The position numbers and the translations under genes are program-made. Source: Rhodoferax fermentans (lineage in GTDB: Bacteria > Pseudomonadota > Gammaproteobacteria > Burkholderiales > Burkholderiaceae_C). From it: DNA of 64,000 bases. A model generated the notes under the pieces. The model ran no database searches, had not been told where the DNA came from, and worked only from the letters and a program-made list of their open reading frames with translations. Of the stretch, positions 2,168 to 10,432 are shown one piece after another. Every line of letters begins with the position of its first letter. Positions within the stretch are counted from its first letter, which is position 1. The stretch covers positions 558,001-622,000 of the forward strand of contig NZ_MTJN01000002.1 of assembly GCF_002017865.1 (NCBI RefSeq), written 5' to 3'.

Positions 2168-2363
2168 GTGAGGACTCCATAAGTTGTAAAACGAACACTC
2201 TCTGATGCAATCTGTGCATCAATCTCAGGCCACGATGTCGCGGTGACTGCGAGTTGTTCGGCTCTTACGGAGTCGCTTCGGGGGCTGTGTTGCCGCCCCT
2301 TGCATGTCAGATGTCGCTCTGGCTGGCGAGACGTCGCACTACGTGCGACGCCGCGATATTACA
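2168..2363. other. Noncoding gap upstream of the capsid gene
   Basis: About 196 bases carry no credible gene. A perfect 7-bp inverted repeat (GTCGCAC, loop TAC) lies at 2333-2349. The copy of the recurrent CTCTAACG motif at 2372-2379 (minus strand) overlaps the end of the neighbouring gene. This may be the leader and promoter region for the strongly expressed capsid gene, but no clear -10/-35 pair was seen. Confidence 0.4.
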
Positions 2364-2807
2364 TCAGATTTCGTTAGAGTGCAAACGCTGCCTCAGCTCG
2401 CAGCCCATCAGCGGCCAGATTTGCTCGATGGCGTGTTTCCTTGCCTCGACACGGCCAGTCTCTGCGCTGTGCTGCGCTGGGTCGATGGCGCCGTAGTTGA
2501 TGCCGACAATCTTGGTGCTGTTGCGCAGGATCAGGACGCAGAAGGTCAGGAGGCTTAGAGCTTCGTAGTCCTTAACTTCACCGATGGTTTGTCCTTCCGC
2601 CATCTCTCCACCAATCACGCCTTCCATAGCGGTGAAGTAGTGCTCGCTGGCAATGTTCGCCTCAATGCCCTCAGGCGTCACACGCGGCGCTGTCAGTCCT
2701 TTGGCTTGGATTTCTTGCTCGATGGTTTGGTCTGCCTGAGCGATCATCGAGCGCGTGAATTCACGCGCAGCGTCGATATAGGGGTGGAGTGGTTGACTAT
2801 GATTCAT
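2364..2807 (-). CDS. Gp49-like phage protein (N4 gp49/Sf6 gp66 family)
   Basis: This 147-aa protein contains the family's recognisable pieces: an N-terminal IEQEIQAKG..APRVTPE segment, SEHYFTA, then LSLLTFCVLILRN and a C-terminal IWPLMGCELRQRL. The function of the family is not established. A paralogue with the same blocks is encoded at 52022-52432 in the second, unrelated prophage. The gene lies between scaffold and capsid genes, and GGAGAA precedes the ATG at 2807. Both ends of the match, and the conserved IWPLMG, make the family call firm. Confidence 0.8.
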   Translation of the reverse strand: MNHSQPLHPYIDAAREFTRSMIAQADQTIEQEIQAKGLTAPRVTPEGIEANIASEHYFTAMEGVIGGEMAEGQTIGEVKDYEALSLLTFCVLILRNSTKIVGINYGAIDPAQHSAETGRVEARKHAIEQIWPLMGCELRQRLHSNEI

Positions 2808-2816
2808 AGGTTCTCC

Positions 2817-3758
2817 TTACACGAGGTCGCCGCGCATGCGCTTGAGCGTAGCGGCGGGGATGGCCTTGAGGTCGTCGACAGTCTCCAGAACGTGCTTGCC
2901 GTCCTTCATGCCCAGCTTGTCGCTGTCGAGGCCCACGTCGCGGGTGTCGGGTGGCGTGCGCAGTGCGGCGTCGACGGCCTTGGCCTTGGCGGCTTGGGTA
3001 CGGTCGGCACCCTTGGCACCTGCCAGCCCGCCAGCAGGCTTGTCGTCGGCCTTAACGGCTGGCTGAAACCGGGCCATGATGTCGGTAGTGGCTTTGACCA
3101 GCGCCTGCGACGGGCTCAGGCGGTCGCGCGTGATGAGCTGGTTCTGCGCGGCCAGCACGAGGTCTACCAAGCCCTGGTCGAACGTGTCGCTGCCCTCCTT
3201 GAGCACCGGGTAGGTCTTCTCCAGGCTCTCGATGGCCATCTCGACACGGATGCTCTCGCTGGCCTCTTCACGGCTGCGCTCGGAGATGCTGGTGCTCTCC
3301 TGGATGACGATCTGGCGGTTGATGCGGTCGATCTGGCTCTGCAGGTCCAGGCTCTTTTCCTCGTCGCCGTCAAGCCGCGCCTGGCTGTCCTGCTTGCGCA
3401 GCGCTACGAGCTGGGCTTCGAGGTCCGTCGCGGTGGCAGTGCGGCTGACCGTCTGCAGCTGCTTCTGCAGCTCAGCCACGGTGCGCTCTGCGGCCTCGCG
3501 CTTGTCGCGCTCTTTGGTCACGGCCTCGTCGAAGCGTGCCTTGGGGATGAAGCGGCCCTTGTCGTCGCGCACAGCCTCGTCGCCCTTGGCCTCGTCGGTG
3601 ACATCGGCGCCAGTGACCGCGACCTTCTTGTCAGCGACCAGCTGGTCTTCGAGCGTGATAGCTGTGCCGAGCGTGTCGTGGGCCAGCGTGTCGTCGTCCG
3701 CGTCGACGGTGGGGGTGAACGTGTCGCCACGGTCGATGGTGTCTTCAGTGCCTGCCAT
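2817..3758 (-). CDS. Putative capsid scaffold protein
   Basis: The 313-aa product is acidic and strongly charged. It has a predicted coiled coil at about residues 75-170 (many Glu/Lys/Gln, e.g. AAERTVAELQKQLQ) and a disordered Asp/Thr-rich N-terminus. These are features of tailed-phage scaffolds that direct assembly of the capsid shell and leave before packaging. Its place directly after the portal gene (2 bp) and upstream of the capsid gene supports this. GGAG lies upstream of the ATG. No conserved catalytic motif is visible, so it is not a protease fusion. Confidence 0.7.
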   Translation of the reverse strand: MAGTEDTIDRGDTFTPTVDADDDTLAHDTLGTAITLEDQLVADKKVAVTGADVTDEAKGDEAVRDDKGRFIPKARFDEAVTKERDKREAAERTVAELQKQLQTVSRTATATDLEAQLVALRKQDSQARLDGDEEKSLDLQSQIDRINRQIVIQESTSISERSREEASESIRVEMAIESLEKTYPVLKEGSDTFDQGLVDLVLAAQNQLITRDRLSPSQALVKATTDIMARFQPAVKADDKPAGGLAGAKGADRTQAAKAKAVDAALRTPPDTRDVGLDSDKLGMKDGKHVLETVDDLKAIPAATLKRMRGDLV

Positions 3759-3760
3759 GC

Positions 3761-6289
3761 TTACTCCTTTGTGGTTGTGGGTGAACTCTCGCTCTTCTCC
3801 GCCTGCGCACGCTGTGCATAGGCGTTCTGCTCAGCCTGCTGCGCCTGCTGGGCGCGCCGGGCTTGGGCATCTTCTTGCTGAATCTGCTGCTTGAGTGCGT
3901 GCTCTTCGCGCATCTGCTGCAGCTTGATAGCCGCCTGCTCACGCTCGAACTGCAGCTTCTCCTGGCGCTCCTGGCGCTCCATCTCGAAGCGCTCGCGCTC
4001 GATCTGCAACTCCTGCTGGAGCTTGGCAGCTTCGCCGTTGTCGCCGCCTTGGGCCAGGTTCTGCGTCTCGACGGTCTCCTTCTCGGTGCGGGCCGTGTCG
4101 AGTGCACTCTTGGTGTGCTTCTCCTGCGCCTCGCCTTCGAGCTTGGAGACGTTGGCCTCCATCGCGCGCATTTCGAGCGCCTTCTTCTGCTGGGCCTCGG
4201 GGCTCTGGGCCTCGGCCTGCATCTGCTTGACGATCTCGCCCCGGCGCATGAGGCGGCTGTTCTCGATGAGCACGTCGTCTGGGATGGCGATGCCCAGCTC
4301 CTTGAGGCTCTTGGCCTGCTCGAACTGGCTGTCTTCGAGCGTCGCGCGGTCTGGCTGTGCGGTGATGATGATGCCGTACTCGCCCAGCGTCAGGTCATTG
4401 ATGATGGTGTCGGTGGCTGGGTCATACTGGTTGACAGTCAACGTCTGCGGCGAGTTGACCAGGTCGTTGCCGGTGATGTGGATGATGCGTTCCTCGGTGT
4501 AATACTCCTGCACCAGATCCAGCACGTTGCGCGCCAAGAAGTAGTCGGTGCGCTCCAAGTTGTCGAGCACGCGCACCAGGTTGGCCTGGCCGCTCTGGCG
4601 CTTGGCAGTGATGGCCTTGGCCGCGACGTCCTCACGGTCAAAACCTTGCATGCTGTCGCTCACGCCGCTGATGGACTTCATGTGTTCCTCAGCCTTGTAG
4701 CTGATGCGGTCCATGCCCTGTGGTATCGAGTTGGGGGTGATCTTCTTGACGTCTTTCTCGGTGTCGCCGTTGACCTCGATCACCAGGCCCGTCTTCGCCC
4801 CGCTCTGCTCCAGGTCTTCGACCTCCATGTTGACAAGGGTGCCGGTCTTGACGATCCAGCCGCTGTTGGCGCTGGTGTTGATGACGTGCAGCTCCTGGCT
4901 GGAGGACTTGTTGAGCAGTTCCTGGCTACCGAGCAGGTTCTCGACCAGGCCGATGGTGCGCCCGTGGTGGAAGTGCGGGAAGTACGGCACAGGCGTGAAG
5001 TGCTTGTATGGCGACCAGTCGTCGTGCAGCACCACGTTGTCGGCAGTCACGGTCCAGCGGATGCGCTTGACCTTCTTCTTGAGCACCGTCAGTTGGCCCT
5101 GCGTGCGCTCCAGCAAGGCAGCGATGCGGTTGCGGTCCCAGCTCTCGGGTACCGGGCGGGCGTCGCCGGTCTGCACATCGACGAAGTGTTTTTGACTGTC
5201 GAGCTTGCGGTACTGACGCTCGACCGTGCGTATGTTGCGCCGGACGTGGGCGGTGTCGAGCAAGCCGTAGTAGCTGCCGGTGAGCTGGGAGCCTGCAAAG
5301 CGGTCGCGCACCCGTTCAATGCTGTCATAGGCGTAGGGGAACAGGCTTTCCTCGCGCATCTTGAGGTAGTCAGCATCGTCCTGGTTGTACAGCGTGGCGA
5401 TGTCCTGGTAGGTCAGCCACTTGGTCACAAAGACGTCGTTCCACTCGTCCGGGTCGTACTGCTCGGCGTCGGGGTCGATGACCACGTTCTTGCCATTGAG
5501 GTTGGTGATGCGGACCTCGCCCTTGAGGTTGTCCGTGAAGTCAAGCCTCACGTCGTAGAAGCCACGGCTGCGGATGAAGCCGTCGGCAGCGACGTCTGAG
5601 CGCACCCAGTTGAGCTGGTTGCTCGCTGCGATCTGCGCCCAGACCTTCTGCAATGCGTCGGCCACCTCGCTGTTGGCACCCTCCCCCGCTGGGCGGTAAG
5701 ACACCTCGTTGCGGTTGTAAATCTGCTGCCCCATGATCGTTGAGACCGTAGAAATTATCTTGTTTATGGTCAAACTCGGTCGACGAGCAAGTTGCAGCGC
5801 GTTGAGGTCAGCCACATCCCACTGGTCCCCCGCGAAGAACTTGTCGCATTTATCGGCTTTGGCCAGGAAGTCGTGGTGGCCGCGCTCCAAGCAGTTGTGA
5901 CAGATCACCAGCCCGGTGTCGCCAAGCACGGCGAACCGCGAACGCGGACCACAGTTGACGATGTCGTAGACATCTTGCGTGTGGCCTTCGCGGTACTCAA
6001 CCCTGCGCCCAAGGGTCGGTAGTGCGTCCGCACGCACCCAGTTGCCTGCGGAGTCGAGCACCTCGTGCTCAGGCGTCATGAATACGCCGTCAACACCAAC
6101 TGTGGCTTTACGACCTTTGGCAACAAGGCCGTCGTGGTTGACATACTCCACACCGTCAAATATGCGGTGGGTGCCCGTGATACGGTCGAGACGCACGTAC
6201 CCGGCGTCGGTCAGTACAAGTGCGTCACCGGAGACGCAGTAGCGAAATCTGTACCAAATTTCGCTGGCAAGGGAGTCATTGACTGGCAA
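3761..6289 (-). CDS. Portal protein (P22-like) containing a mini-intein
   Basis: The product is the dodecameric ring at the DNA-packaging vertex. The precursor of about 842 aa should splice to about 727 aa. The N-extein ends IWYRFRY and the C-extein begins CLERGHH, giving a continuous P22-type portal N-terminus (FFAGDQW..LTINKI). The last 230 residues are a very long Glu/Gln/Arg-rich coiled coil, like the portal barrel. The start is taken as TTG at 6289, because GGAGG sits six bases before it; there is no ATG in frame. This start lies inside the last codons of the upstream HNH gene, so insertion of that gene may have replaced the original start. Confidence 0.85.
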   Translation of the reverse strand: MPVNDSLASEIWYRFRYCVSGDALVLTDAGYVRLDRITGTHRIFDGVEYVNHDGLVAKGRKATVGVDGVFMTPEHEVLDSAGNWVRADALPTLGRRVEYREGHTQDVYDIVNCGPRSRFAVLGDTGLVICHNCLERGHHDFLAKADKCDKFFAGDQWDVADLNALQLARRPSLTINKIISTVSTIMGQQIYNRNEVSYRPAGEGANSEVADALQKVWAQIAASNQLNWVRSDVAADGFIRSRGFYDVRLDFTDNLKGEVRITNLNGKNVVIDPDAEQYDPDEWNDVFVTKWLTYQDIATLYNQDDADYLKMREESLFPYAYDSIERVRDRFAGSQLTGSYYGLLDTAHVRRNIRTVERQYRKLDSQKHFVDVQTGDARPVPESWDRNRIAALLERTQGQLTVLKKKVKRIRWTVTADNVVLHDDWSPYKHFTPVPYFPHFHHGRTIGLVENLLGSQELLNKSSSQELHVINTSANSGWIVKTGTLVNMEVEDLEQSGAKTGLVIEVNGDTEKDVKKITPNSIPQGMDRISYKAEEHMKSISGVSDSMQGFDREDVAAKAITAKRQSGQANLVRVLDNLERTDYFLARNVLDLVQEYYTEERIIHITGNDLVNSPQTLTVNQYDPATDTIINDLTLGEYGIIITAQPDRATLEDSQFEQAKSLKELGIAIPDDVLIENSRLMRRGEIVKQMQAEAQSPEAQQKKALEMRAMEANVSKLEGEAQEKHTKSALDTARTEKETVETQNLAQGGDNGEAAKLQQELQIERERFEMERQERQEKLQFEREQAAIKLQQMREEHALKQQIQQEDAQARRAQQAQQAEQNAYAQRAQAEKSESSPTTTKE
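5894..6238 (-). mobile_element. Mini-intein in the portal protein (115 aa)
   Basis: This is an in-frame protein-splicing element. Block A starts CVSGDALVLTDAGYV with Cys1. Block B contains TPEHEV with its conserved Thr and His. Block F is DVYDIVNCGPRSRFAV, and block G is VICHN followed by Cys+1. All residues needed for splicing are present. At 115 residues it is at the extreme small end for inteins and has no endonuclease domain. An HNH gene lies directly upstream of the host gene and might supply mobility in trans. The insertion point is 17 codons after the start. Confidence 0.88.
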
Positions 6290-7013
6290 GATACACCTCC
6301 GGGTCAAATTTATTGCTCTTGCGACAGTTCTCGCTGCGCGTCAGTAGCTGCAGATTGGCAGGCACATGAAGCCCGCAAACGAGTTTGTGTTTGAGCGGGA
6401 TGATGTGATCTACCGTCAAGTTCTGGCGATCAGCTTCTGTGTAGACGGCGTCAAGCTCTCTGCGATCCGCCCAGGCGGGGGTTGCGTGGCGTACCCGCTG
6501 GCGACGACGGGCTTTGGTCAACTTGACTTTGAGGGGGTTGGCCTTCACCCAGGCCGCGTCGTTCTGAGCCTTTCGCTCTGGATTTGCGTCGCGCCAGGCT
6601 TTGGCCTGCGCAAGTACCGTTTCGCGGTTGGCTTTGAAGTACGCACGATCACCCGCCTTTTTCTTCTCGGGGTTGGCTGCAGCCCAGGCGCGTGTTTTAG
6701 CGCGAACAAGCTCAGCGTTGCGCCGGTTGTATTCAGCGGACTTCGCACGGCGCTTCTCAGGGTCTGCCAGATGTGCGGCTTTTGCCTCGGCGCTGATCCG
6801 CTCACGGTTCTCGGCGTACCAGGCATCTTTGTAGGCTTTGACCTCGACGGCATGCTCCTTGCGGTACTGAGCGTCGTATGCCTTCTTGGTAGCGCTCTTG
6901 TTCCATTCGGCCTTTGCAGCTTTGATCTTCGCGCGGTTTTTCGCCCGGTACGCACGGTCGTACGCAGCCTTGGCGTCTTTCCGTTCTGCTTCCGATGGCG
7001 TGGCGGTTTGCAT
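6276..7013 (-). CDS. HNH homing-type endonuclease upstream of portal
   Basis: This 245-aa protein has a very basic N-terminal two-thirds made of repeating Ala/Lys/Arg/Tyr helices (AWAAANPEKKKAGD, AWRDANPERKAQND), probably DNA-binding. A C-terminal HNH nuclease follows: LTVDHIIPLKHKLVCGLH..NLQLLTRSENCRKSNKF, with the catalytic DH and the NLQLL..N motif. It sits between terL and portal, overlapping the portal start by 14 bases, and a GGAGG signal for the portal lies within its last codons. The placement is typical of a free-standing homing endonuclease that targets a neighbouring gene. Start ATG at 7013 has GGAGGC upstream. Confidence 0.85.
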   Translation of the reverse strand: MQTATPSEAERKDAKAAYDRAYRAKNRAKIKAAKAEWNKSATKKAYDAQYRKEHAVEVKAYKDAWYAENRERISAEAKAAHLADPEKRRAKSAEYNRRNAELVRAKTRAWAAANPEKKKAGDRAYFKANRETVLAQAKAWRDANPERKAQNDAAWVKANPLKVKLTKARRRQRVRHATPAWADRRELDAVYTEADRQNLTVDHIIPLKHKLVCGLHVPANLQLLTRSENCRKSNKFDPEVYLASQ

Positions 7014-7060
7014 GCGTACGAAGCCTCCGAGTGTGTGCGATGACGTTAGAGTTTATCAGA

Positions 7061-9724
7061 CTAAGCGGCCATGTGCGAGGCCCCGCCGCCGCGCAGCTGC
7101 TTCATCAGCTTGGTTTTCCAGCTCTCAGGCATCTTCGGTTTCGGTGGCCCCTTGGGTGCGGCGTGCGTCGTGGCCAGCCGCACGACGTGGGCCAGCGCGT
7201 CCACCTGGTCGTCGTGCTTGCCACCAGCCTGAAAGCGCAGCAGCTCCTTTTTGAACTCGGCGTACCACGGTGCCCGGCTGGGGAACTGGATCTTCTTCTG
7301 CTGCATGCGCCCGCGTGCGGGCTGGGCACGGGTGCGCTTGTCGGTCAGCGGTGTGATGACCTCGTACGACGGGTAGTGCTTGGCCATCTCGCACGCCTTG
7401 CTGAAGTTGGCCTTGATGGACTTCCAAATCTGACCATCCTCCACCGCAATCTGGTCGGCGTTCCAGAGCTTGGCGTAGCTCTGGACGGCGGTGCCCAGCT
7501 CGATGCCGTCGTCTGTCTTGAAGCGCCAGACGTCGAGCACGTACATGTTGTCGTACTCGTCGACCAGAACGGTGATACCGACGGTGTAATCGCTCTTCTG
7601 GTTCTCGGTGATGGCAAAGTCCCACGCCTGGTAGACGATGCGCCCGTGGCGCTGTGGCGCGTGCACGTACTCGATGAACATGTCCTTGGTGAAGAACGAG
7701 CCATCCTCGGGTGTCGGGTTCTGCTGGTAGAGCGCCGCCCACCACCGCTGCTGACCAAGCGCGTAGTAGTTGGCCATGCGCTTCTTGAGCATCTCGAACG
7801 TGTAGCGCGCCGGATGCAGCGCACTGTTCATCAACCGGGTGAGCTTGGAACCCTCGGGCGGTGTGGTGCCGGGCGGGAACTGCTCGATGGTGTCGTCGGG
7901 CAGGATGTACTCGTCGCCCTGGTCGTTGATGGCTGGGTACTTGACGATCTCGAACGTGTCGCCGTCACCGGTGGCCATGACCTGCTGGATACGCCCTGCC
8001 CAGTCGTCCTCGTTCCACCACGTATTGTGGCTCACCAAGCCGTTGGCAATGAAGTTTTCTGTGTCGTTTACTTGAACGTCGAAGACTTCCTCTACTCCGT
8101 CAAGCTCTACGCTTACCACGCGCTCCAGAGTGAAGTCGGAGATACCGAGCGGCGGCAAGTGCCACTGGCTCAGTAGCAAGGTGTCCGATTCCGGCATTGC
8201 AGTCGTTGCACAGGAGTCCTCGGACTTTTCCTGTGTCGTGACAATGGTCGACGGCGAGCTTGTGCTTCCAGTGAGCAGGCGAATTGCCCGCTTCAGCAGG
8301 CTTCCCACAAATCGCGCAGCAGCCTTTCTGGTGCTCGTACATGGCGTCGTAGTCCGCGTTTGTGATGCCGTATCGGTGTTTGAGACGCGCGTTGCGTCGT
8401 GGGATGGCATTGTCAGAGCCTGAACGGTGTCCATCTGCCCAGCGTTTTTTGGAATAGTGACTTGCGCAAAGTCCGCGGCACACGGCAGGCTGCTCGCACC
8501 CCTCGGCAGAGCACGTAACGCCTCGCCATTTGCCCCACTGCCCTTCACGGTTACGATTTTCAGGGCTGTAGTCAAGTTTTTCAGACGCGTCCACGATACC
8601 TCTCCGTTAGGTGCCACGGTCAGAAACGGGTGCCTCTGATTGGCTCTAACGATTCTACCAGAGTTCGTTAGAATTCTGTAGACTGAATCACGACGACTTG
8701 ACTTTATAGCTGCGACAGTTGTGCGTGCAAGCGTTCCGCGAGCGTACGTGGCGATCTCGTCGGCAGGCTTGAGCGTGTCGAGCCTGCGCTGAGAGCCGTC
8801 AGCCATCAAAACAGGTGTGTCACCCGTCATGCACATGATGCCCAGCACGCCGCCACCGGGTGCGAGCCGGGTCAGTGCGGTGGACATGTACCACTCCCAC
8901 ACAGCGTCGCGGATGACCTGTGAGTCCGCAGCCTCGGCGTCCTTCACCGGGTCGTCGATGACCAGGATGTGTGCGCCGCGCCCAGTGATCATGGTGCCGA
9001 TACCGGCTGCAAGGTAGCCGCCACCGTAGGTCGTGTTCCAGTTCTCGACGGACTGGCTGCTGGGGTCCAGGCGCATGTGCTCGAAGACACTCTGGTACGC
9101 CGGGTCGCGCACGAGGTCGCGGATGTACCGGCTGAAGCTCATGGCCAGGCTCTGGGCGCCCGAGGCGGCGATGATTTCCCAGTCGGGGTGCTTGCCCAGC
9201 ACCCACGGGGCAAAGTGGCGGCTGGCGATCTCGCTTTTGCCGTGGCGCACAGGCATCATCAGCAGCAGTCGGGGCTCCAGACCGGCTTCGACATCAGCGA
9301 CGAACTTCTCCAGGCGACGGCAAATGTCCTGGTGGACCCAGCCAGCGTCGTATTTGGGCCGGAATCGCTTGATAAACGCCAGCAAGCGGCGTCGGGCCAG
9401 GGTTCTGGCAGCGATTTCCTTCTCAACCCCGCTCAGTGGGCCGGGGGAGATGAAAACTTCGCCCGTAGAGGCGTTTTCGAGGCCCGGCGGGGGTGTTTGG
9501 GGGGTCTCTTCGGGCGGTACAGCGGTGATCTTGAGGCTGGGCGTGCGCTTCTTGGGCGGCGGAGCTACCGGCTCGGGTGATTCGAGCGTGTTTTCGGCGT
9601 CTGCTGCGAGTTTTGCCAGGCAATCGGTGCACTCCGTGTCGTTGTCACGAGGGAATAGCGTCGGTGGCCGCTTTTCTCCGCAGTGCTTGCAGACAAACTT
9701 AGTGCTGCGTCTTGGGCTCGACAT
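7061..9724 (-). CDS. Terminase large subunit interrupted by an intein
   Basis: This packaging ATPase-nuclease is an 887-aa precursor and 617 aa after splicing. It has an N-terminal zinc ribbon (CKHCGEK..CTDC, about residues 12-34), Walker A MPVRHGKS (about 157-164), Walker B HILVIDDP (about 252-259), and then the coupling motif. The intein cuts this motif: exteins GIM and TWWNEDDWAGR join to the usual terminase T-x-W-x-E-D-D signature. Nuclease acidic residues lie in QAWDFAI and GKHDDQVDAL. The start at 9724 is preceded by AGGAGGT and overlaps the terS end by 26 bases. The intein contains an out-of-frame endonuclease gene. Confidence 0.92.
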   Translation of the reverse strand: MSSPRRSTKFVCKHCGEKRPPTLFPRDNDTECTDCLAKLAADAENTLESPEPVAPPPKKRTPSLKITAVPPEETPQTPPPGLENASTGEVFISPGPLSGVEKEIAARTLARRRLLAFIKRFRPKYDAGWVHQDICRRLEKFVADVEAGLEPRLLLMMPVRHGKSEIASRHFAPWVLGKHPDWEIIAASGAQSLAMSFSRYIRDLVRDPAYQSVFEHMRLDPSSQSVENWNTTYGGGYLAAGIGTMITGRGAHILVIDDPVKDAEAADSQVIRDAVWEWYMSTALTRLAPGGGVLGIMCMTGDTPVLMADGSQRRLDTLKPADEIATYARGTLARTTVAAIKSSRRDSVYRILTNSGRIVRANQRHPFLTVAPNGEVSWTRLKNLTTALKIVTVKGSGANGEALRALPRGASSLPCAADFAQVTIPKNAGQMDTVQALTMPSHDATRVSNTDTASQTRTTTPCTSTRKAAARFVGSLLKRAIRLLTGSTSSPSTIVTTQEKSEDSCATTAMPESDTLLLSQWHLPPLGISDFTLERVVSVELDGVEEVFDVQVNDTENFIANGLVSHNTWWNEDDWAGRIQQVMATGDGDTFEIVKYPAINDQGDEYILPDDTIEQFPPGTTPPEGSKLTRLMNSALHPARYTFEMLKKRMANYYALGQQRWWAALYQQNPTPEDGSFFTKDMFIEYVHAPQRHGRIVYQAWDFAITENQKSDYTVGITVLVDEYDNMYVLDVWRFKTDDGIELGTAVQSYAKLWNADQIAVEDGQIWKSIKANFSKACEMAKHYPSYEVITPLTDKRTRAQPARGRMQQKKIQFPSRAPWYAEFKKELLRFQAGGKHDDQVDALAHVVRLATTHAAPKGPPKPKMPESWKTKLMKQLRGGGASHMAA
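8100..8594 (-). CDS. Endonuclease VII-like homing nuclease nested in intein
   Basis: This 164-aa protein lies wholly inside the terminase intein in a different frame on the same strand. The N-terminal Cys cluster (CSAEGCEQPAVCRGLC) and the C-terminal DHCHDTGKVRGLLCNDCN signature with an upstream CAICGKP pair match the Endonuclease VII/His-Me finger family. The start is GTG at 8594 with GGAGAGG four bases upstream, so it can be translated on its own. It is presumably the homing enzyme for the intein's insertion site. Independent function is inferred from the intact motif, the ribosome site and full-length conservation. Confidence 0.88.
   Translation of the reverse strand: MDASEKLDYSPENRNREGQWGKWRGVTCSAEGCEQPAVCRGLCASHYSKKRWADGHRSGSDNAIPRRNARLKHRYGITNADYDAMYEHQKGCCAICGKPAEAGNSPAHWKHKLAVDHCHDTGKVRGLLCNDCNAGIGHLATEPVALAAARYLRLHSGARGKRRA
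8645..8672. repeat. Inverted repeat ahead of the nested endonuclease
   Basis: TCTAACGA (8645-8652) and TCGTTAGA (8665-8672) form a perfect 8-bp inverted repeat with a 12-base spacer. It lies about 50 bases before the GTG start at 8594. Each arm matches the CTCTAACG motif found at several gene starts in this prophage. It may be a promoter or operator that drives the endonuclease separately from terL. Confidence 0.45.
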
Positions 9725-10151
9725 CCACGACCTCCTGTGTGGGGGCCATCTGCAGGGCAAGTAGCTCTTCGTCGGTCATGGCCTCGAACTTGGAACGCAG
9801 CCGCTGCTGGTTCATGTTCACGTTGATGGTCTTGACCTCTGGCGCGTAGTGGCCCAGTATCTTGGCCACCTCGGTCCAGCCCTTGATCATGTTGCCCGAG
9901 TCACCCTGCATGCGGGCGCAGGCAATGCCGTCCAGAATGCCGTCGATCACGTCCACCCGCTTGATGGTGGTCAGGTCGGTGAGCTTCTCGCGGGCCTGGG
10001 CGATCTCAAGGCGGATAGCTTCGGAGATGTCTGGGGCGCTGGAGTTGGGATACCCCGCAGCGAGGGCCGACGCATGCCGTGACTTGCCCGTGAGCACGCC
10101 GTCGACGAAGGCGTTCTGCTTGGGGGTGAGGGCTGAGGGACGACGGGCCAT
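9699..10151 (-). CDS. Terminase small subunit
   Basis: This 150-aa protein has the N-terminal helix-turn-helix layout of small terminases (LTPKQNAFVDGVLTGKSRHASALAAGY), a central helical oligomerisation region and an acidic C-terminal tail. It recognises phage DNA and recruits the large subunit, whose start overlaps its end. An in-frame TAA lies four codons upstream of the ATG at 10151, and no Shine-Dalgarno site is visible. A strong promoter at 10160-10188 would start transcription at or next to the ATG, so the message may be leaderless. Confidence 0.85.
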   Translation of the reverse strand: MARRPSALTPKQNAFVDGVLTGKSRHASALAAGYPNSSAPDISEAIRLEIAQAREKLTDLTTIKRVDVIDGILDGIACARMQGDSGNMIKGWTEVAKILGHYAPEVKTINVNMNQQRLRSKFEAMTDEELLALQMAPTQEVVDVEPKTQH

Positions 10152-10159
10152 GGTTCGAG

Positions 10160-10188
10160 ATTATAAGAGTCCGTGAGATTTATGTTAA
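10160..10188 (-). promoter_or_regulatory. Sigma-70-like promoter for terS and the head operon
   Basis: On the minus strand, TTAACA (10188-10183) and a perfect TATAAT (10165-10160) are separated by exactly 17 bases. The predicted start falls at about 10151-10153, at the A of the terS ATG. Confidence 0.7.
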
Positions 10189-10380
10189 GTGCTATGGAAA
10201 TGAGAGCAAGGTCTGTGAAAATTTTGAAAATTTTTATGGAGAACTTCGTGCTATGAAAAGGGGAGCGGGGTTCTGGGAAATGACGCGAACAAAGTCAAGC
10301 TGCCGACCCTCCCAGGGCTCGGAATTCCACCGCCCCACTTCGGATTCGGTTTCGTAGCAACCTTGGAGTCCCTTAACACC

Positions 10381-10432
10381 CAGCTTCGCAGAGCGAAGCT
10401 GAAAGACTCTTGGTTGTGTGGACGACGTGTTC
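10381..10432 (+). promoter_or_regulatory. Hairpin plus conserved 30-base leader block, copy 1
   Basis: A 9-bp stem (CAGCTTCGC, loop AGA) at 10381-10401 is followed directly by a 30-base block at 10403-10432 that includes GACTCTTGGTTGTG. The block matches 25 of 30 bases at 11222-11251, where a hairpin also precedes it and a ribosome site follows. This duplicated unit probably controls the early small genes; whether it acts as promoter or RNA leader is unknown. Confidence 0.5.

Follow-up and report, generated by a model that had tools for sequence, protein, structure and literature searches.

A phage terminase intein with a conserved endonuclease VII-type HNH gene nested in its -1 reading frame

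The genome of Rhodoferax fermentans (assembly GCF_002017865.1, 4.47 Mb) carries on its contig 2 (NZ_MTJN01000002.1) a phage terminase large subunit gene (terL) which is interrupted by an intein. We analysed a stretch of 64,000 nucleotides of this contig (positions 558,001 to 622,000), hereafter called the window. In this study, we report that the DNA of the terL intein contains a second gene on the same strand, encoding an HNH endonuclease of the endonuclease VII type in the -1 frame of the intein. At the level of sequence this nested arrangement is clear, real and conserved. Our favoured reading, to which we give a probability of about 0.82, is that the element is a mobile mini-intein of terL with a separately translated -1-frame HNH homing endonuclease; translation of the HNH protein, cleavage of its target and homing are what we infer. 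Because the intein and the C-terminal extein of TerL are 100% identical to a 117 kb viral contig of IMG/VR, the stretch is very probably a prophage.

All window features described here lie on the minus strand. The terL gene (7061..9760), an open reading frame (ORF) as listed with a putative start, is free of stop codons from 9760 to 7061, and Pfam recognises Terminase_6N (E value 4.9e-11) and Terminase_6C (7.2e-12) in the whole TerL, one on each side of the intein. According to the translation and the reading of the junctions, the N-extein (8834..9760) ends with GGGVLGIM and the C-extein (7061..8023) starts with TWWNEDDWAG, the insertion point being between the Met and the Thr of the junction motif. 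The intein itself (8024..8833) consists of 270 residues, 310-579 of the listed ORF. It is translated without a stop from CMTGDTPV to SHN, is followed by Thr and matches Pfam Intein_splicing (8.3e-16). It has a class 1-type nucleophile set, with Cys1, the block B motif ANQRHPF including His68, His269-Asn270 and Thr+1. Invariant columns are found in alignments of 47 and of 43 sequences; among the 47 aligned inteins Cys1, His68 and Asn270 are invariant and His269 is present in at least 90%. In a set of 93 inteins, described below, Cys1 was scored in 92, the exception (L037) being a one-codon coordinate offset, and the C-terminal end is His-Asn in 88, Ser-Asn in four and cut by the contig edge in one. 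Upstream in the TerL of L037, the C-terminal end of another intein is visible.

An AlphaFold model of the intein, built with 43 sequences, is sharply divided by confidence. Residues 1-100 and 231-270 reach block values of 85-96 in the predicted local distance difference test (pLDDT), residues 101-230 only 35-48. Foldseek relates the folded parts to the Ssp DnaB, Npu DnaB, GyrA and RecA inteins (Ssp DnaB mini-intein, E 3.4e-9), and the two intein halves are thus predicted to form a Hint fold. The N-terminal half of the splicing domain comprises residues 1-100 (8534..8833) and the C-terminal half residues 228-270 (8024..8152). They are joined by a linker of residues 103-227 (8153..8527), which is predicted to be disordered (pLDDT mostly below 50). 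Read in the -1 frame, the overlap DNA yields a model with a mean pLDDT of 85.5.

The gene in the -1 frame (8100..8594) encodes 164 residues and starts with GTG. Its product matches PF02945, Endonuclease_7 (E 2.4e-21), and its profile matches T4 endonuclease VII (1e7d, E 1.3e-8). The HNH residues of endonuclease VII are found at C93, C96, D116, H117, H119, C129, C132 and N133, which we take to be the zinc-binding and catalytic positions, assuming the residue roles of the T4 enzyme. C93, C96, D116, H117, C129 and C132 are invariant and H119 and N133 present in at least 90% of 47 sequences, so that the pattern DH.H ... C..CN is conserved. The HNH core and this pattern are shared with T4 and free-standing phage endonuclease VII; the nested protein differs by its position and by an added N-terminal zinc-finger pattern (C28, C33, C43, H46), which is conserved among relatives. 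In a subgroup with longer inteins of 297-305 residues (L041, L042, L049, L050 and others) an extra cysteine-rich, zinc-finger-like segment is seen near the HNH N-terminus. A preliminary description of this DNA, made from the letters alone, had proposed the intein with its coordinates and splicing residues as well as a complete endonuclease VII-type gene with a GTG start and the ribosome site GGAGAGG in another frame, and both proposals were borne out.

The arrangement is not singular. A protein search with the intein returned 1,346 proteins at E <= 1e-3, and all 120 listed cover the whole query. Three longer proteins (P0009, P0014, P0025) contain, by Pfam accession, further domains of the Hint or LAGLIDADG type. 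Since protein records do not reveal the other frame, the DNA of relatives was fetched. A search of IMG/VR with the intein found 196 relatives, of which the best 80 were kept as DNA; each of these 80 loci combines an open intein frame with an endonuclease VII ORF in its -1 frame. Together with six cultured-phage and seven genome loci they make up the set of 93 inteins, all with an open intein frame. In 90 the HNH is complete; the remaining three show an internal stop (L092), an in-frame deletion (L076) and a cut at the contig edge (L035). The HNH motif pattern is found in 87 of the 93, L092 included. Five of the six without it (L015-L018, L024) are complete ORFs in which one residue of the pattern differs, and the sixth is L076.

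The six cultured phages are Chandler, Phlyer, Angelicage, Vincenzo, Vivi2 and phi1_186018. They come from 38 phage records matching the intein, of which seven were opened; the seventh, Kikimora, matches the intein only distantly and over part of its length, and gives no hit to the HNH profile. The arrangement is also carried by the terminase of a Streptomyces plasmid and by genome contigs labelled Sulfuritalea, Gallionellaceae, Anaerolineae, Chloroflexi, Mycolicibacterium, Nonomuraea and 'uncultured bacterium' (L092). Inteins sharing the out-of-frame state are down to 33% identical to the window intein. A search with the HNH alone led to the same place: in the best 80 of 260 matches a simple intein pattern was found in 75 (both halves in 42, one half in 33), and the remaining five also lie in long open ORFs in the same relative frame. 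Among annotated phages the HNH matches 1,844 records, so that the nuclease is not without relatives, a possibility raised beforehand. Of the 60 rows listed, the best 36 all lie inside terminase genes, and those beyond, the best listed matches outside terminases, are 36-43% identical and annotated as endonuclease genes of their own.

The frame of the nuclease was further surveyed in 306 loci, scanned in six frames with profiles of both proteins. These loci lean towards the family, because they were fetched with its own intein, HNH or TerL. The HNH profile is matched by 250 ORFs, 246 of which sit inside an open intein ORF, in the -1 frame relative to it. The four others are one contig-edge sequence occurring three times (L035, L167, L273) and a frameshifted locus (L182). 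By distinct HNH DNA sequences, 128 of 130 are nested, and at 95% identity 111 of 112 clusters have a nested representative. An intact in-frame HNH, which the preliminary description had named as evidence for a simple indel, was not found among the 250 ORFs of these loci, a survey which could miss a distant in-frame relative.

Concerning selection on the two frames, we compared 57 sequences (59 non-redundant ones minus L076 and L092) in six pairs which have no sequence in common and less than 25% divergence; sites silent in both frames were too few for use. Substitutions which are silent in HNH and change the intein amount to 0.75 per site versus 0.67 for synonymous ones in the intein-only parts, and substitutions altering both proteins to 0.095 per site. 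In a wider class of 16 pairs with 25-32% divergence, near saturation, the respective values are 1.40, 1.60 and 0.207. An earlier run which included near-identical sequences gave the same direction (1.04 versus 0.90; both-altering 0.125). By these rates the HNH frame is under purifying selection (about 0.13), while the intein frame over the overlap drifts near-neutrally, at about the synonymous rate. The purifying selection rules out that the HNH is a relic.

Even so, the intein frame over the overlap contains no stop in any of the 57 sequences. When the HNH codons are resampled, between 1.3 (with the codon usage of the HNH) and 3.4 (with that of the intein zone) stops are expected per sequence; in the third frame the average is 10.6; and in seven free-standing genes for endonuclease VII the corresponding frame contains 2-9 stops and is open in none. 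A combined P value was omitted because related sequences are not independent. Codon resampling, third-frame stops and free-standing controls rule out a chance ORF in DNA rich in guanine and cytosine (GC). The linker frame is nearly neutral, yet it must stay free of stops. The preliminary description had called this frame open and low in complexity, rich in Ser, Thr and Ala, and its composition over the overlap (T 15%, S 12%, A 11%) agrees. The comparison of substitutions in both frames which it had suggested supports its claim of two overlapping proteins on one DNA as far as both frames are open and the HNH is selected; on the intein side, the overlap encodes a near-neutral linker predicted to be disordered, so that only one of the two proteins is selected there.

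Terminases with and without the insert, which were likewise to be looked for, both exist. Sixty TerL loci were fetched by the C-extein; 12 in which the match did not start at the junction were dropped and 48 were read. The junction is uninterrupted in 42 and filled by the intein in six, and related terL alleles thus differ by presence or absence of the intein at one exact site. The six filled loci include the contig of the window itself. Five of them, this contig and L136 among them, have a -1-frame HNH, and the last (L099) is too truncated for the frame to be read. Among 49 loci with both flanks the mean identity is 37% for the TerL flank, 62% for the splicing halves and 51% for the HNH, and in 569 of 1,176 pairs the exteins are below 45% and the inteins above 60% identical. 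This pattern fits horizontal spread, to which differing constraint could contribute. In 99 other genomes, 59 of them of the same genus, the intein is absent; one weak match (E 5e-4) is the C-terminal part of an intein of another protein (L089).

HNH proteins beside terminases can be DNA-packaging accessories, and the nested HNH might have such a role rather than that of a homing enzyme. Its location within terL and the commonness of endonuclease VII relatives in phages would suit it. The HNH, however, goes with the intein: in the 42 empty-site TerL loci an HNH-profile ORF was found in none, with DNA scanned up to 4 kb on either side. Moreover, a zinc finger joined to an HNH is a common build of homing enzymes. 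We consider a packaging role unlikely.

Several observations weigh against the reading as a mobile intein with a selected nuclease and a drifting linker. The HNH model matches solved nucleases weakly in Foldseek (best E 6.5e-3, none at 0.001). The rate of substitutions altering both proteins lies below that of nonsynonymous substitutions in the HNH only (0.095 versus 0.146; wider class 0.207 versus 0.312), and in the wider class the silent-in-HNH rate falls below the synonymous one. A slight constraint on the linker frame is therefore possible; codon-position effects and saturation could also explain these values. The distance-correlation test of mobility as a unit gave a mixed result: HNH divergence correlates better with that of the TerL extein (Spearman 0.57) than with that of the splicing halves (0.43). 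Because of this closer tracking, intein and HNH as one freely moving unit are not supported; the HNH might have adapted to its target site.

It is also conceivable that the intein formerly had an in-frame HNH whose frame was shifted by indels or sequencing errors, the present state being decay. Two loci are in line with such events. In L182 (about 2229-2643) the HNH starts in the -1 frame and a frameshift inside the overlap then breaks both products, by sequencing error or recent damage. In L092 (2559-3374) a stop lies inside the HNH while the intein frame remains open, so that the nuclease can be lost and the host frame kept. Against decay, the out-of-frame state is common to nearly all HNH-profile ORFs and to inteins of low identity, the survey found no in-frame relative within its reach, and the HNH is under purifying selection, with a start and a ribosome-site-like motif of its own. 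On the conserved out-of-frame state we reject an artefact of this kind, which we regard as very improbable.

In the window the GTG start codon of the nuclease (8592..8594) overlaps the TGG codon of intein Trp81 (8591-8593), and a Shine-Dalgarno-like motif, GGAGAGG (8599..8605), ends 4 nucleotides before it. Among the 59 non-redundant sequences the start is ATG in 44 and GTG in 15, and in 58 it overlaps the TGG of the conserved intein Trp. The exception, L092, has the usual ATG there too, the scored stretch lying after its internal stop. Directly before the Trp codon all 57 sequences have a purine (A or G), although in 18 of them the residue encoded there would allow other bases as well (log10 P -7.1 for these 18, given the codon usage of the intein). 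A Shine-Dalgarno-like motif is found 5-16 bases upstream of the start in 47 of 57 sequences versus 389 of 3,898 control windows of the same phase.

A -1 ribosomal frameshift would instead produce a TerL-intein-HNH fusion. The HNH is in the -1 frame throughout, as this requires, and in the window the intein frame reads G AAA AAC directly after the HNH start. Slippery heptamers near the start are, however, not conserved: strict ones in the right frame occur in nine of 57 sequences, at differing positions, and G AAA AAN in five of 57, the window included. Programmed frameshifting is as improbable as decay. Since the start site and the Shine-Dalgarno-like motif are conserved and the heptamers are not, independent internal initiation of the HNH is the best reading. 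With a start codon and ribosome site of its own the nuclease would not need splicing for its release, as had been proposed beforehand.

We therefore favour independent initiation in the following scheme. Ribosomes on terL would read through in the intein frame and make a TerL precursor, from which the intein would be removed by protein splicing; the stretch over the HNH would serve as a floppy linker joining the splicing halves. A second group of ribosomes would start at the ATG or GTG overlapping the Trp codon, downstream of the Shine-Dalgarno-like site, and produce the HNH protein with its zinc finger and endonuclease VII domain in free form. This protein probably cuts intein-less terL at the empty site, and repair of the cut terL would copy intein and HNH across.

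Group I introns often carry HNH ORFs, and the insert could be an RNA intron (group I or II) with the open TerL frame being incidental; we discard this, as Rfam gives no intron family at E <= 1 over 6000-10400 and the intein frame is open in all 93 inteins. Moreover, a relative is reported to splice as a protein, the TerL6-f intein in gp6 of phage Chandler (Kelley et al. 2016, PMC5050341). The TerL6-f inteins of mycobacteriophages belong to the same family as the window intein, their site being likewise in the region of the ATPase C-motif, and the DNA of the Chandler locus likewise contains the out-of-frame HNH. We found no mention of such a nuclease in that report, and 'overlap' and 'out of frame' are absent from its main text; cleavage is reported there for TerL1-b and TerL1-c. 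The present survey shows the arrangement throughout the sampled family.

The closest published case known from another gene is ShiLan, an HNH with a GTG start in the third frame of a phage methylase gene whose own frame is open (Arsenault, Gosselin and Gogarten 2025, PMC11855218). Out-of-frame HNH, open host frame, zinc fingers and a disjunct distribution are shared with the present family. In contrast, ShiLan is described in the text of that paper without a detectable splicing domain, whereas the HNH of the window is enclosed by an intein with Intein_splicing match and predicted Hint fold, so that the host protein would be restorable. The ribosome-site-like motif before the window HNH was, according to the same text, not detected for ShiLan by its authors. 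That paper cites a preprint by Gosselin et al. and Gorbalenya 1998 on overlapping frames, frequent in actinophages. The preprint (Gosselin et al. 2025) deals with actinophage inteins of 'non-canonical architecture' and may already describe part of the nested arrangement; the present family extends to contigs labelled Sulfuritalea, Gallionellaceae, Anaerolineae and Chloroflexi. In literature searches, which covered titles and abstract openings and not the texts of Gosselin 2025 and Gorbalenya 1998, no out-of-frame nuclease inside a true intein was found. The earlier statement that no well-described case of this exact arrangement was known is qualified by these precedents, ShiLan without an intein and possibly the preprint. 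In canonical bifunctional inteins the homing endonuclease lies in frame between the splicing halves (PMC6801210). The window nuclease also lies between the halves, but it is out of frame and a separate protein.

A second nuclease family shows the same frame. In a TerL relative (L117) a 409-residue intein occupies another TerL site, beside the Asp motif of the nuclease domain. The -1 frame of this intein contains a gene for an HNH_3 nuclease (7.1e-12) with a GTG start and AAGGAG upstream. HNH_3 lies in the -1 frame of the TerL intein ORF in nine of nine loci, all above the Pfam cut-off. These inteins or intein-like inserts are L117 (1123-2349), L317 (2151-3104), L318 (2142-3122), L323 (2501-3454), L325 (2226-3185), L326 (1037-1987), L327 (647-1390), and L328 and L329 (both 2319-3062), the last two being near-identical there. 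Tetrasphaera phage TJE1 and Acinetobacter phage Highwayman are among them, and the loci range from 29 to 59% GC. Not counted are L322 (a duplicate of TJE1), L324 (intein), L330 (HNH, +1 frame closed) and L331-L333. Intein_splicing is above the cut-off in L117, L318, L325 and L326, just below it in L323 and lower in L317; L327-L329 have no match, and the intein call there comes from motif reading, plus weak NCBIfam matches for L327 and L328. In all eight loci tested the intein frame has no stop over the HNH_3, versus 4.8-8.7 expected at the base composition of the locus; in L317 the tested stretch begins upstream of the likely HNH start. Shine-Dalgarno-like sites, looked for by eye, are unapparent before the HNH_3 in most of these loci. 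For the 409-residue L117 intein the DNA search returned only itself and the protein search no relative. Of 26 phage records listed in this connection six were opened (H117, H121, H124, H127, H129, H130), and H121, H129 and H130 are annotated as separate genes.

Counted apart is Vibrio phage 1.245.O (L316, 2217-3464). Here an HNH related to the HNH_3 type is flanked by two ORFs, each carrying one half of the TerL intein. It too is in the -1 frame relative to both, and the intein frame contains stops. This TerL intein is apparently split. Dassa et al. are said to have described in 2009 'fractured genes', in which a gene for an endonuclease separates the two parts of a split intein. The Vibrio TerL has such an arrangement, and the window shares with these the separate homing endonuclease gene between intein halves; unlike in fractured inteins, the intein frame of the window is uninterrupted, and splicing would be in cis. 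The Vibrio locus suggests a path between nested and split inteins, which could run in either direction. Because the linker frame is nearly neutral, stops could split such inteins. At somewhat less than even odds, we suggest that a -1-frame HNH is a recurring, perhaps the default, state of HNH-bearing terminase inteins. It would have been reached independently by at least two HNH families, the endonuclease VII type at the C-motif site and HNH_3 at the nuclease-Asp site. Linker stops could then split a nested intein, which would splice in trans and have a free-standing nuclease gene between its halves. The nested form would be the missing link that connects one-piece inteins with 'fractured' split-intein genes.

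Two further features stand beside terL in the window. The portal gene (3761-6307) has near the N-terminus of its P22-type portal protein a mini-intein-like insert of 115 residues (5894-6238), which is unusually small. It begins with CVSGDALVL, ends with VICHN and is followed by Cys. Pfam gives no match to it and NCBIfam only intein_Nterm at E 0.15, the assignment being made by motif reading. Between terL and portal, overlapping the start of the listed portal ORF, lies an HNH ORF of 245 residues (6276-7013), with a match to PF01844 below the cut-off (E 0.0017).

Textbook mobile inteins couple the nuclease to splicing in one frame. Here the two functions appear uncoupled while the DNA is still one compact unit: the host protein would be restorable by splicing, and the nuclease, apparently with its own start, can decay alone, as in L092. 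Because more than 100 related sequences keep the arrangement, the nested HNH is, on this comparative evidence, a conserved mode of hiding a selfish gene and not a one-off accident. In surveys of the host frame only, such inteins resemble large mini-inteins without endonuclease, and mobile inteins may be under-counted because these surveys would miss a nested nuclease. The family is a natural, well-sampled gene overlap in which one frame is selected and the other near-neutral but bound to stay open, a clean system to measure the cost of overlap. Finally, the split version in Vibrio phage makes the origin of split inteins testable.

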